IMG/VR virus record: IMGVR_UViG_3300034103_002087
Location: 1 to 20,298 of that record
Length of the DNA: 20,298 bases
Reading direction: 5' to 3' (one strand)
Source of the DNA: a virus
Below are positions 1,871 to 5,782 of this stretch, piece after piece (the first letter of the stretch is position 1; the number at the start of each line of letters is the position of its first letter). The translations under genes and the position numbers were made by a program. Below the pieces are notes generated by a model. The model searched no databases and was not told where the DNA came from. It saw only the letters and a list, made by a program, of their open reading frames with translations.

Positions 1871-2359
1871 ATGCCAGTATTAAACCCTAACGAAATAATG
1901 TTTACAGCTTTTGAACCAAAAGTTCAAAACCGCTTTTTAATGACTATTCAAGGTGTTCCTGCTTACTTAGTTCATAAAGTAAAATTCCCTGATATTAACT
2001 TAAATTCAATTAAAGTTGATCATATTAACGTATATCGTAAAGTTAAGGGAAAAGCTGAGTGGCAAGACATGACAATGAATCTTTATGATCCTGTAACACC
2101 TTCAGGTGAACAGGTAGTAATGGAATGGATTCGTCTATCACACGAATCAGTAACAGGCCGTGATGGCTACTCAGATTTCTACAAGAAAGACATCACATTA
2201 AGTGAATTAGGTCCTGTAGGTGATGTTGTAGGTGAATGGATCATTAAAGGTGCATTTATTAAACAAGCCAATTTTGGTGATGGTGATTGGAGTCAAGGTG
2301 AATCGTTAAAAGACATTCAATTGACAGTCGCTATGGATTATTGCATCCTGAACTACTAA
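1871..2359 (+). CDS. 19: Tail tube protein (gp19 family)
   Basis: Major tail tube subunit; hexamers stack to form the inner tube through which DNA passes. The length of 162 residues matches the T4 gp19 class. Family-typical features are visible: an N-terminal NRFLMTIQGVPAYLV strand, VKGKAEWQDMTMNLYDP near residue 60, EWIRLSHESVTGRDGYSDF near 90-108, LGPVGDVVGEWIIKGAF near 118-134, and the end AMDYCILNY. The ATG at 1871 is the first start after the sheath stop and gives the family-length product. There is no Shine-Dalgarno sequence; the leader is A-rich. A strong terminator follows directly, so sheath and tube, both needed in large amounts, can be made on a transcript separate from the genes downstream. 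Confidence 0.93.
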   Translation: MPVLNPNEIMFTAFEPKVQNRFLMTIQGVPAYLVHKVKFPDINLNSIKVDHINVYRKVKGKAEWQDMTMNLYDPVTPSGEQVVMEWIRLSHESVTGRDGYSDFYKKDITLSELGPVGDVVGEWIIKGAFIKQANFGDGDWSQGESLKDIQLTVAMDYCILNY

Positions 2360-2446: not shown

Positions 2447-3205
2447 ATGTCAGAGTTTCGTTTCCCAACAGAAGTTATTGATTTACCTAGTAAAGGTTTA
2501 ATCTATCCCGAGTCCAGCCCATTAAGTTCAGGAACAATTGAACTAAAGTACATGTCTGCTAAAGAAGAAGACATTTTAACTAACCAAAACTTCCTAGAAA
2601 AAGGAATTGTAGTTGATAAACTCTTACAAAGTATGATTGTAAGTAAAATTGATTACAGTGAATTGATTTTAGGAGACAAAAATGCTATTTTAGTAGCAGC
2701 ACGTATTTTAGGTTATGGAGCCGAATATCCTGTAGAAGTAACAGATAAATACGGAAAGAAAGTTTCAACAACCATTAATTTAAGTGAATTAAAAGACAAG
2801 AAAATTGATGAAACTTTATTTATTAAAGGAAAAAATGAATTTAATTTCACACTTCCTCAAAGTAAAGTAACAGTTACTTTTAAACTTTTAACTCACGGTG
2901 ATGAAATGAAAATTGAAGAAGAACTTAAAGGTTTGAAAAAGTTGTATCCTCAAGAAAGTTTTGACATAACTACACGCTTAAAATACCAAATTATCGCGAT
3001 AAACGGTGATTCTAACGCGGAAAAAATTCGTTTATTCGTGGATAATATGTTGTTACAAGATTCACGCGCTTTTCGCAAACATATAAACGAAATTACACCT
3101 GACTTAGACATGGTTTTTAACTATGAAGACAGTAAAGGAGACATTGTGGAGGGTGTCTCTGTACCTATGAATCTAAACTTTCTTTGGCCTGACGCCAACT
3201 TATAG
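2447..3205 (+). CDS. 26: gp26-family baseplate hub / tail assembly chaperone-like protein
   Basis: A 252-residue member of the T4 gp26-type family (Pfam T4_baseplate). The hallmark N-terminus is visible: VIDLPSKGLIYP followed by GTIELKYMSAKEEDILTNQ and a KLLQSMI helix. A beta-rich middle and the terminal NFLWPDANL are also consistent. In T4, gp26 acts in hub assembly. Its position directly before a small helical protein and the tape measure matches the G/GT or E/E' chaperone pair of other phages. The ATG at 2447 is preferred over one at 2396, which lies in the terminator hairpin and would add a non-conserved hydrophobic leader. The stop is TAG, the only TAG among the window's genes. A possible +1 frameshift near 3182-3188 into the next gene is discussed in the findings. 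Family assignment is fairly firm; the chaperone role is inference. Confidence 0.75.
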   Translation: MSEFRFPTEVIDLPSKGLIYPESSPLSSGTIELKYMSAKEEDILTNQNFLEKGIVVDKLLQSMIVSKIDYSELILGDKNAILVAARILGYGAEYPVEVTDKYGKKVSTTINLSELKDKKIDETLFIKGKNEFNFTLPQSKVTVTFKLLTHGDEMKIEEELKGLKKLYPQESFDITTRLKYQIIAINGDSNAEKIRLFVDNMLLQDSRAFRKHINEITPDLDMVFNYEDSKGDIVEGVSVPMNLNFLWPDANL

Positions 3206-3215
3206 GTCTACTTTT

Positions 3216-3449
3216 ATGACTGAAATTCATGATTTAACTTATCATGGAGGCGGTGGATTTATATACAGTGAAGTTTGGCAAATGCCAATTATGACTCGTC
3301 GTTATCACATTAAAAAAATCAACGAATTTTTACAGAAAAAGGCTGAAGCTGAAGAAAAAGCTATGAAAGGATCCAATACTATGGATGCTAAATCATATGC
3401 TAAATCTACAAATGTTCCTGATTTCGTAAGTAAGGTAAAAAAATCATAA
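3216..3449 (+). CDS. Small tape-measure chaperone-like protein (gp51/T-domain position)
   Basis: A 77-residue protein between the gp26-family gene and the tape measure. The conserved-looking core is FIYSEVWQMPIMTRRYHIKK followed by a lysine/glutamate-rich helix (about residues 37-52) and a polar tail. An aromatic-Pro-Arg core with a charged helix is what the second tape-measure chaperone of other phages looks like (the T part of lambda GT, P2 E'). The ATG lies 10 bases past the upstream stop with only a weak AGG before it. The frame is open upstream to 3177, so it overlaps the end of the gp26-type gene in the +1 frame. It could be made as an independent protein, by reinitiation, or as a frameshift extension of gp26. 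The reading frame is clear; function is inferred from position and composition. Confidence 0.6.
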   Translation: MTEIHDLTYHGGGGFIYSEVWQMPIMTRRYHIKKINEFLQKKAEAEEKAMKGSNTMDAKSYAKSTNVPDFVSKVKKS

Positions 3450-3466: not shown

Positions 3467-5782
3467 ATGGCAATTGATCAATTACAAAACGACAGTGTAG
3501 ATAAATCTAGACAGCAGTTAGGTTATTCCCAACAACTTACTAAAGAATTAGACGATCAAAAAAATATTGCAAAAAACTTAAATCTAATTTATGTTAAAAA
3601 TAATGATGCTTTAAAACAGTTTTCTTTAATTATAAAAGATGCAAAAGATGAAGCTCAAGCTTTATCTGAGGCCATTAAAGACCAGTTAGAAGCTTTAAAG
3701 AAAACTACTGAATATTCTACAAGATATGCTGAATTAAATGAAAAAATTAAAAAAGCTGGAAAAGAATTTGCCGAAAATAAACAAAAATCATCTGACATTG
3801 AAGCAAATTTAGGAAAAGATGCACAAAAATTAGCTCAACAATATGTAGATGGTTTAACTGCTAGATATAAAATAGATGAAAAAATAAATGAGTTAACTGA
3901 AAAAAGATTAGCTTTTGAAGACGCTAAAAGAACAGGTGGAAATTTAGAAGAAACTAGAGAAGAATACATAAAGGCTGGACTAGTAGTAAAAACACTTAAA
4001 GAACAATTAGAAATTGTTGACCAGATTAATACTGGTAAAGGAGCATATTTCGATCAATTATCAGATGAAGAAAAAGCACAATTACAAATATTTGCTTTAT
4101 CTCAAAAACAAATGGACGTTTCTCGTAATATTGTTAGAAATCACCAAGACGAATTAGATGTTTTAGAGAAACAACTTACTGTTTTCCAAAAAAGGGTATC
4201 CTCTATATTATTCTATATTAATAAAATTAAAGAATTTCCTGGAATAGCATCGGGTCTTAAATTTATTAACACTCAACTTGATGCAATTGGAATTAGTTTT
4301 AGTGCTATATTAAAAAATGTTTTAGCATTAGATAAAACTTTAACAGAATTTGGCAAGTCTGTACAAGTAAGTAAAGAAGGAGCTAGAACTTTAGCAGATA
4401 GTTTTCAAGAAACCAGTTACGAAGCATCACAAATAAATAAAAATGTTTCTAGTGTTCAAGCTAGTCTTAAAAACCAAATAGAAGCTAACAACGAATTAAA
4501 TAAAAGTTTAGGAACTGGAGCCTTATTTACAAAACAAAGTCGAATTGATCAAATAGAACTTGTAAAAGGCATGGGTCTTCAAGGTGAAGAAGGTGCTAAA
4601 ATTTATGGTCTAGGCAAGTTAAATAACATGACTGCTCACCAAACTGCAGTAGCTATTGGTGATCAAGTAGTAAATACTAGAAAAGCAACCGGAATAACAT
4701 TAGACTATAGAAAAGTTTTAACAGATGTAGCTAAAGTAGGAGGTCAGTTAGCTGCTCAATATAAAAATAATCCTGCACTTTTAGCTGAAGCCGTTACTCA
4801 AGCTCAACTTTTAGGCTTAACTTTAGAACAAACTGCTAAAATGGGCAGTAGTTTAGTTGATGATTTTGCAGGAAGTTTAGGTAGAGAATTAGAAGCTGAA
4901 TTATTAACCGGTAAAGCTCTTAATTTAGAACAAGCTAGATACTTTGCTTTAATGGGTGATAGTGCTAAAGCTGCAAAAGAATTAATGGATAATGTTGGAG
5001 GAATTGGAGAATACCAACAACTCAACGTTCTTCAACAAAAGAGTTTAGCAGCCGCTATTGGTTTAACCACAGATGAATTAGCAACTTCTTTAAAACAACA
5101 AGAACTTTTAAAAGGAACAGCATTTGAAACACAAGCTGCTTTTGAAGAAGTAGCGAGAGAAGCAGCTAGAACTGGAGACTACACTAAATTGAATGCTCAA
5201 TTAGCTCAAGCAGCAAATGGAGAAGAATTAGCTAAACAAGCCTCTCAAATAAGCAACCAAGAAAAGTTCCAAATGGCTATTGAAAAACTACAAGAAACCG
5301 TAGCTAATTTTGTAAATGGACCTCTTGGAAAATTCATAGATAAAATAGCAATATTAGTAGGTCAAGCTGGAACTCTTAAATTTCTATTCACTGGTATAGC
5401 AACTATTATAACAGTAAAAATGCTAAATGGGTTATTTGCATTAGGAGCTCCTTTCTCTAAATTAATTGCTAAAACCGCTATTTGGGCTGCTGAAGCTACT
5501 TTTGCTAATGCTGCATTAACTTTAGGAGCTGGGGTTGCTATAGCAGCAGCTGCTGCTGCTGTTGGATATGGTATTATTAATTCTTTATCTGATGGTGAAG
5601 CTAGTGTTAGTGGAGCTAGTGGAGGTGGTGGAGGAGGAGTTAAGGTTCCTAACTCAGGTGCTGAAGGAAACAGAGATATTAATATAACTCTTAGAAATGA
5701 AAATAAAGTAGATATTGGAGGACAAAAAATGTCTCACCTCAATACTCAAGGACAACTGGTAATTAACACAAGAATGGGTTAA
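3467..5782 (+). CDS. Tail tape measure protein
   Basis: A 771-residue protein that should extend inside the tube and set tail length (the role of T4 gp29). The first roughly 250 residues are rich in Lys, Glu, Gln, Ala and Leu with a heptad-like pattern, consistent with long coiled coils. The middle is alanine-rich and helical. Two hydrophobic stretches lie at about 636-660 (LKFLFTGIATIITVKML) and about 683-703 (TLGAGVAIAAAAAAVGYGII), as is common in tape measures that contact the host membrane. A glycine run follows at about 719-725, then a short beta-type C-terminus (INITLRNENKVDIGG) that may dock to the baseplate hub. The position after the two chaperone-like genes supports the call. I see no peptidase or lysozyme motif. 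The length predicts a tail of roughly 115 nm if about 0.15 nm per residue applies. Confidence 0.82.
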   Translation: MAIDQLQNDSVDKSRQQLGYSQQLTKELDDQKNIAKNLNLIYVKNNDALKQFSLIIKDAKDEAQALSEAIKDQLEALKKTTEYSTRYAELNEKIKKAGKEFAENKQKSSDIEANLGKDAQKLAQQYVDGLTARYKIDEKINELTEKRLAFEDAKRTGGNLEETREEYIKAGLVVKTLKEQLEIVDQINTGKGAYFDQLSDEEKAQLQIFALSQKQMDVSRNIVRNHQDELDVLEKQLTVFQKRVSSILFYINKIKEFPGIASGLKFINTQLDAIGISFSAILKNVLALDKTLTEFGKSVQVSKEGARTLADSFQETSYEASQINKNVSSVQASLKNQIEANNELNKSLGTGALFTKQSRIDQIELVKGMGLQGEEGAKIYGLGKLNNMTAHQTAVAIGDQVVNTRKATGITLDYRKVLTDVAKVGGQLAAQYKNNPALLAEAVTQAQLLGLTLEQTAKMGSSLVDDFAGSLGRELEAELLTGKALNLEQARYFALMGDSAKAAKELMDNVGGIGEYQQLNVLQQKSLAAAIGLTTDELATSLKQQELLKGTAFETQAAFEEVAREAARTGDYTKLNAQLAQAANGEELAKQASQISNQEKFQMAIEKLQETVANFVNGPLGKFIDKIAILVGQAGTLKFLFTGIATIITVKMLNGLFALGAPFSKLIAKTAIWAAEATFANAALTLGAGVAIAAAAAAVGYGIINSLSDGEASVSGASGGGGGGVKVPNSGAEGNRDINITLRNENKVDIGGQKMSHLNTQGQLVINTRMG

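Follow-up and report, generated by a model that had tools for sequence, protein, structure and literature searches.

The closest described systems are the tail assembly chaperones of the lambda gpG/gpGT type, with which the locus analysed here shares a predicted short and a predicted long form and its position as one gene just before the tape measure gene. According to a passage of a 2016 review, long-tailed phages 'except T4' share G-T frameshifting as a conserved feature, and shifts of -1, -2 and +1 all occur (PMC5009743). T4 has two genes, and its gp26 and gp51 belong to the same Pfam family, PF12322, as the gene described below. In some T4-like phages a short chaperone gene is accompanied by a longer one that is fused (Vladimirov et al. 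2022, as summarised in a passage of PMC10885494), phage 0305phi8-36 was described earlier with a two-gene form in a section of PMC2147016, and the idea of two-gene chaperones in T4-like phages is already known. Frameshifting in gp26-type genes was not described among the matches listed by a literature search outside which most subscription journals lay. In cyanophages gp26 overlaps a small gp51 gene at the corresponding Phe-Phe codons, but the overlap is in the -1 frame, at T_TTT_TTC, and the small gene has its own ATG.

The sequence analysed, here called the window, is a stretch of 20,298 nucleotides of a viral record (IMGVR_UViG_3300034103_002087), and its features are collected in Table 1. 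The genes lie in the order tube, gp26-type, small and tape measure, which is also the order in Flavobacterium phage Immuto. The gp26-type ORF matches PF12322 (T4_baseplate) with 31.6 bits, above the curated cut-off of 24.5, and PHROG 150 (baseplate hub) with an E-value of 2e-12. In contrast to the lambda gpG/gpGT type, this is a PF12322 protein, the second frame is +1 and not -1, and there is no canonical heptamer at the site. We propose that ribosomes very probably undergo a programmed +1 shift at CUU-U, or at UUU-U in most relatives, and that this yields tail assembly chaperones of 252 and 333 aa. Frameshifting of this kind is known, and the junction probably represents a +1 version of it that is widely conserved, within a family for which T4 has been counted as the exception.

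Table 1. Coordinates in the window of the features at the junction and of the neighbouring tail genes
Feature	Position	Strand	Details and evidence
Tail tube gene, upstream	1871..2359	+	PHROG 4542 tail tube protein, E 2.1e-24
gp26-type gene, short tail assembly chaperone (predicted)	2447..3205	+	252 aa, TAG 3203-3205
Overlap of both open frames	3177..3205	+	29 bases
C preceding T-run (AAC codon)	3178..3178	+	Removes canonical -1 heptamer
Putative shift site TTT CTT TGG CCT GAC, frame 0	3179..3193	+	Codon statistics, synonymous constraint, site forms
Inferred slip CTT to TTT	3182-3184, next codon GGC 3186-3188	+	Within shift site
Predicted +1-frame C-terminal domain, putative gp51-type tail	3186..3449	+	GLTPTYR..., 87 aa plus stop; alignment, AF2 model
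gp26 stop TAG	3203..3205	+	Inside +1 codons TAT AGG (Tyr-Arg)
77-aa ORF	3216-3449	+	ATG 3216, TAA 3447-3449; +1 relative to gp26
ATG, annotated start of 77-aa ORF; probably internal Met	3216..3218	+	ATG past site in 18/96 representatives
Tape measure gene	3467..5782	+	771 aa; PHROG 167 tail length tape measure protein, E 3.9e-6

In the proposed mechanism the gp26-type gene and the small ORF would be one tail assembly chaperone gene with two product forms. The majority of ribosomes would terminate at TAG 3203 and release the 252-aa short form, and some would slip +1 on TTT-CTT-T and then read GGC. The likeliest slip would be of the peptidyl-tRNA-Leu from CUU to UUU with UGG waiting in the A site, and the slipped ribosomes would make the 333-aa long form, whose C-terminal domain has 87 residues and is predicted to be helical. 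As in the lambda gpG/gpGT case, both forms may coat the tape measure protein, and the C-terminal domain may recruit tail tube subunits. What the sequences show is that the overlap, the site and the +1 domain are conserved and that start codons are missing in most relatives; at which codon ribosomes slip, how efficiently they do so and what the two forms do, we infer.

A sequence-only reading of this DNA had suggested a +1 frameshift from an overlap of the two frames, and the overlap was confirmed: the nearest upstream stop in the 77-aa frame is TAA at 3174-3176, and the frame is open in +1 from 3177 across the last 29 bases of gp26. Such an open stretch of 13 codons would be unremarkable in one sequence, and its significance comes from the relatives. 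The CTT TGG C proposed as the slip site was also found at 3182-3188 in the gp26 frame. At the junction, frame 0 reads AAC TTT CTT TGG CCT GAC GCC AAC TTA TAG, and the +1 frame after a slip on CTT reads GGC CTG ACG CCA ACT TAT AGG..., giving GLTPTYRSTFMTEIHDL.... The sequence CTTTGGCCTGAC occurs once on the + strand of the whole window. One gp26-type match and one adjoining tail match were found per record in a 176-kb contig (L005), whose gp26 is 96% identical to that of the window, and in five other records; contigs may be incomplete for such a count, and Immuto and Microcystis phage Mel-JY01 are deposited as complete genomes.

Relatives were gathered by protein searches of viral contigs, MAG contigs and three phage records (L109-L111), in which the site could be aligned at 193 loci, a number that includes contigs found by more than one search. 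An earlier pass that included SP-15-type records gave 141 distinct junctions, and eight loci were too short 3' of gp26. The counts below refer to 98 representatives at <85% gp26 identity, of which 97 were long enough for the frame test; L103 is among the 98, and L018 was dropped from the set for an in-frame TAA within gp26. This TAA follows 177 residues, and is either a sequencing error or marks a broken gene.

The overlap is conserved in relatives. Beyond the gp26 stop, 96 of the 97 testable representatives have a further 120 nt or more without a stop in +1, and one has an equally long open stretch in -1. Relatives with in-frame stops or long gaps between the genes, which would speak against a fusion, were looked for, and among the 97 the genes are separate only in L103 (with L104), where they do not overlap, the site is different and the small gene has its own ATG. 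Start codons (ATG, GTG and TTG only) were counted from the site to 33 nt past the gp26 stop. An ATG is present there in 18 of 96 representatives, the window included, GTG or TTG only in six, and none of these in 72, and 31 of the 72 have none upstream in that ORF either. Since 72 of 96 representatives have no ATG, GTG or TTG after the site, the downstream domain could hardly be made there except by frameshifting.

The codons of the site are strongly constrained. Measured against backgrounds from the same genes, and in related sequences which are hence not independent trials for the binomial values, codon 1 is TTT in 97 of 98 and TTC in one (TTT background 0.82, 8e-8), codon 4 is CCT in 95 and CCA in three (CCT background 0.36, 3e-38), the Asp codon is GAC in 81 of the 84 representatives with Asp (background 0.19, 2e-54), and the Tyr codon is TAC in 7 of 7 (background 0.27, 1e-4). 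Codon 2 is TTT in 76, CTT in 20 and CTA in two; codon 3, the would-be A site, is TGG in 87, TAC in seven, TTC in three and CTC in one, and is never a stop codon. Among the 242 gp26 columns of 57 representatives, the four most synonymously constrained are site positions +3, +6, +5 and -1. At codon 2 a YTT precedes a pyrimidine in 96 of 98, and at codon 1 a TTT does so in 97; none of the 98 lacks a slip codon of the form TTT-Y or YTT-Y, and 95 have both. The odd forms are CTA in L019 and L111, TTC as first codon in L095 and CTT-C in L121. The slippery run of the sequence-only reading is kept in relatives (YTT-pyrimidine, 96/98); as CTT itself is the minority form (20/98), the conserved, putatively slippery site in the overlap is better written TTT-YTT-TGG-CCT-GAC. 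At the places of the TAT AGG codons, the +1 residue is Tyr in 67 of 98 and Arg or Lys in 75 of 98.

The base preceding the T-run is C in 85, G in nine and T in four of the 98 representatives, and the codon at the 5' edge of the run is AAC in 59 vs AAT in two (background AAC fraction 0.26). A canonical -1 heptamer (X_XXY_YYZ) in frame at the site is absent in the window, and the preceding base is C or G in 94 of 98. The four cases with T are L103, which has no shift, L128, L147 and L160. No shifting member of the +1 clade other than the last three has this T (n=98); in these three the -1 heptamer is present and CCA stands for CCT.

The +1 domain is conserved from GLTPxYR through IHxIVFHGxGGYxxxxVYNMPIWLRxF (37 of 56 tails at <70% identity aligned), and its conservation starts upstream of ATG 3216. 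An AlphaFold2 model of the domain has a mean pLDDT of 80.5 and a pTM of 0.57, with helices at residues 4-19, 27-31 and 35-63. The Met encoded by the window ATG is residue 11, within predicted helix 1, and a protein begun at ATG 3216 would therefore miss part of this predicted helix. Both routes may operate, in that frameshifting would give the long form and ATG 3216, in the subclade that carries it, would also give a free small protein. This is unlikely, if not to be neglected. An M.E[IV]HDL motif is found in 14 representatives, and the cyanophage small ORFs keep an ATG at +5 beside a -1 heptamer in all 64 readable distinct junctions. However, in other clades the aligned residue is often another hydrophobic, so the Met may be an ordinary replacement, and the 25-nt leader of ATG 3216 is the least AT-rich of 14 (60% vs 64-100%).

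For frameshifting as the source of the long form, the slip in the window is likeliest CTT to TTT. In all 98 representatives the codon preceding Pro has C or G as its third base, as if this codon was read in +1, which favours a slip upstream of it, at YTT; the residue that it gives in +1 is Gly in 87, Thr in seven and Ser in four. The CTA of L019 and L111 suggests that the first TTT can serve as slip codon too, and no one candidate slip codon fits all representatives. As reported in a passage of PMC10885494, Curran's randomisation of prfB placed CCC and UUU next after CUU as slippery codons. A slip at CCT instead, with tRNA-Pro moving to CTG, is distinctly improbable. CCT is kept in 95 of 98, and proline codons are known +1 sites in Listeria phages (according to a passage of PMC5009743) and for SPP1 gp17.1* (likewise PMC6316719), but L128, L147 and L160 have CCA, and the C or G that ends the codon before it would already be read in +1. 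Poorer still are the prospects of a -2 slip into the same frame, as used in Mu according to a passage of PMC5009743: T7 runs permit -2 re-pairing and 57 of 98 representatives have TTTTTTTGGCCTGAC, but CTA (L019) and TTC-TTT (L095) pair poorly at -2, and the CTT of the window would pair more weakly.

That there are two separate genes, with ribosomes starting on the 77-aa ORF at ATG 3216, either independently or by reinitiating once they have stopped at TAG 3203, is very hard to credit: the window and 17 other representatives of 96 have an ATG past the site, the genes of L103/L104 are separate, and a small ORF can start at its own ATG in D509, VP-1 and phiA8-29, but the 72 representatives with no start after the site, a conserved domain and predicted helix that begin before the Met, and the conserved TTTYTTTGGCCTGAC are left unexplained. 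The absence of a good ribosome site before the small ORF had been taken as a further sign of frameshifting. No SD-like motif was indeed found in the 25 nt before ATG 3216, but as an argument this is weak: 12 of the 14 inspected window starts lack one, and, with an SD-like motif in only two of 14, a missing ribosome site says little and is compatible with separate genes. SD leaders are seldom used in Bacteroidota genes. Among the relatives, seven of ten MAG matches are titled Bacteroidota, Immuto infects Flavobacterium, and Mel-JY01 is recorded on Microcystis.

The sequence-only reading also likened the site to that of prfB (RF2). The CUU-U slip codon is indeed common to both, but the likeness does not extend to a stop codon in the A site, which is UGG in the window (TGG in 87/98) vs UGA in prfB. 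The clade of the window also differs from prfB in having no consistent SD element or structure. An SD-like 4-mer just 5' of the site was found in only 15 of 58 representatives, and RNA structure gave no consistent signal as a stimulator over five regions in 56-57 representatives (mean z -0.25 to -0.75); region +15..+75 of the window alone has a structure z of -2.3. Going by the sequence, then, the usual frameshift stimulators are missing, with no stop in the A-site codon, no consistent structure and a rare SD-like 4-mer. Overall, the frameshift suggestion appears right in kind, and probably in mechanism.

Among named or deposited phages, an open +1 frame at the corresponding Phe-Phe (or Phe-Leu) codons is seen in Immuto (L109), Mel-JY01 (L110) and the uncultured LR756508 (L111), likewise in Listeria LIS04 (L112), Bacillus SP-15 (L113) and Streptococcus GXN1 (L114), and also in Rhodothermus RM378 (L115), for which the frame alone was examined. 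A relative from a huge phage, LR756511.1 (L116, L212), combines a canonical -1 heptamer, U_UUU_UUC, at these Phe codons with a -1 frame that stays open over a long stretch. The cyanophage junctions (80 loci, reduced to 64 after removal of seven without the C-terminal pattern, two short ones and duplicates) have T_TTT_TTC in gp26 and the small ORF in -1, which is annotated as gp51 in P-SSM2 (L219) and S-PM2 (L220). A conserved -1 frameshift apparently joins cyanophage gp26 to the small gp51 gene (L222-L301, P-SSM2 and S-PM2), with the ATG kept. Other heptamers are T_TTT_TTT in HTVC008M and phiM19, T_TTT_TTC in ZPAH1 and ValKK3, and T_TTT_TTG in RHph_I1_9. D509, VP-1 and phiA8-29 have no T6 run and apparently have separate genes. 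PF12322 matches number two each in T4, 44RR and phiKp_23 and one each in 10 of 12 other records. Immuto and Mel-JY01 have none at E <= 0.01, and their gp26-type genes match that of the window by other searches.

Profile comparisons were made between these groups, and the E-values are those of single hhalign pairs, which differ from database E-values. Between the fused cyanophage-type protein and T4-type gp51 the match covers 246 columns and extends to the C-terminus (99.4%, E 3.7e-21); with gp26 the cyanophage-type protein shares a common domain of 204 columns (98.7%, E 2.1e-16). For the fused window-clade protein, the match to the fused cyanophage type spans 275 columns, tail included (97.1%, E 5e-11), and that to the fused SP-15 group is at 99.9%; the latter group reaches 14% with gp51. 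Among the tails, that of the window clade reaches 59% with the cyanophage tails (score 26.9 vs 17.4 for the best of 100 shuffles), and the cyanophage tails match gp51 at 97.7%. The cyanophage tails were gathered with a permissive pattern, which gave 54 entries, and 22 distinct rows were aligned; the gp51 alignment omits one row under 200 aa (L317). Direct comparison of the window-clade tail with gp51 gave 1.3% probability and a score of 14.2, a value that falls among those of 100 column shuffles (best 19.9), and the fused window clade gave 0.13% with gp51 and 0.06% with T4-type gp26, neither significant. Because the direct comparison with gp51 fails, the link to T4 is transitive and runs only through the cyanophages.

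In a 36-row tree, T4-type gp26 and gp51 group together (94/93), beside the single-gene -1 phages ZPAH1 and ValKK3 (84/92). We lean towards an order of events in which duplication replaced -1 shifting; the tree has long branches and several weak forks, so this order is a lean and no proof. In its broadest form the proposal is of a widespread class of +1 sites, C/G-TTT-YTT-TGG-CCT-GAC, that work without stop codon, SD or structure, of a shift direction in the T4 superfamily that is largely set by the base before the T-run (C or G for +1, T for -1), and of a T4 that lost its shift on duplication into 26 and 51. For this broad form we would put the chances for and against as equal. If true, T4 relatives frameshift in two directions at the same codons, with the two genes of T4 a later substitute, and the series of +1, -1, duplication and separate genes would be one in which the evolution of shift direction and product ratio can be followed. 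It would also provide a large collection of natural +1 sites from phages that in many cases seem to infect Bacteroidota, as judged from relatives.

The gp26 model has a mean pLDDT of 89.3, and its N-terminal part may resemble the HK97 chaperone. Residues ~1-94 align with YqbN (3klu; Z 5.7, rmsd 4.3, 87 residues), which we take to be related to tail chaperones, and the same stretch aligns with the HK97 tail assembly chaperone (2ob9) with Z 5.0 and rmsd 4.2 over 81 residues; the third-best of 992 chains has Z 2.8, and by the tool's own note a Z under 8 may reflect merely a common arrangement. It is suggestive that a solved tail assembly chaperone is within the leading pair of structure matches to the predicted gp26 fold. 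A Foldseek search of the gp26 model against the PDB gave no match at E <= 0.001, with the HK97 chaperone at rank 7 (E 1.2).

The tail model gave only weak helical matches in the PDB and no match at E <= 0.001 in BFVD. The third BFVD row for it, with probability 0.98 and E 0.62, is a phage Moogle protein labelled 'tape measure chaperone', which is described as frameshifted in a passage of PMC4319497. Deposited annotations at L109 3839-3949, L113 3809-3928 and L221 2367-2504 show a small free protein that covers just a C-terminal portion of the tail domain. If the proposed frameshift is true, small 'free' proteins such as those of Immuto, SP-15 and HTVC008M would in fact be truncated versions of a C-terminal domain.

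The motif ATATTTAT is found on the + strand at window positions 1841, 2420, 3455, 5786 and 12523, 12-30 nt before the start codons of five genes, and its total of seven in the window is not above chance. Within 60 nt after the tail stop, ATATTTAT or TATTTATA is present in 85 of 92 representatives, and these may possibly be a late promoter or processing signal.
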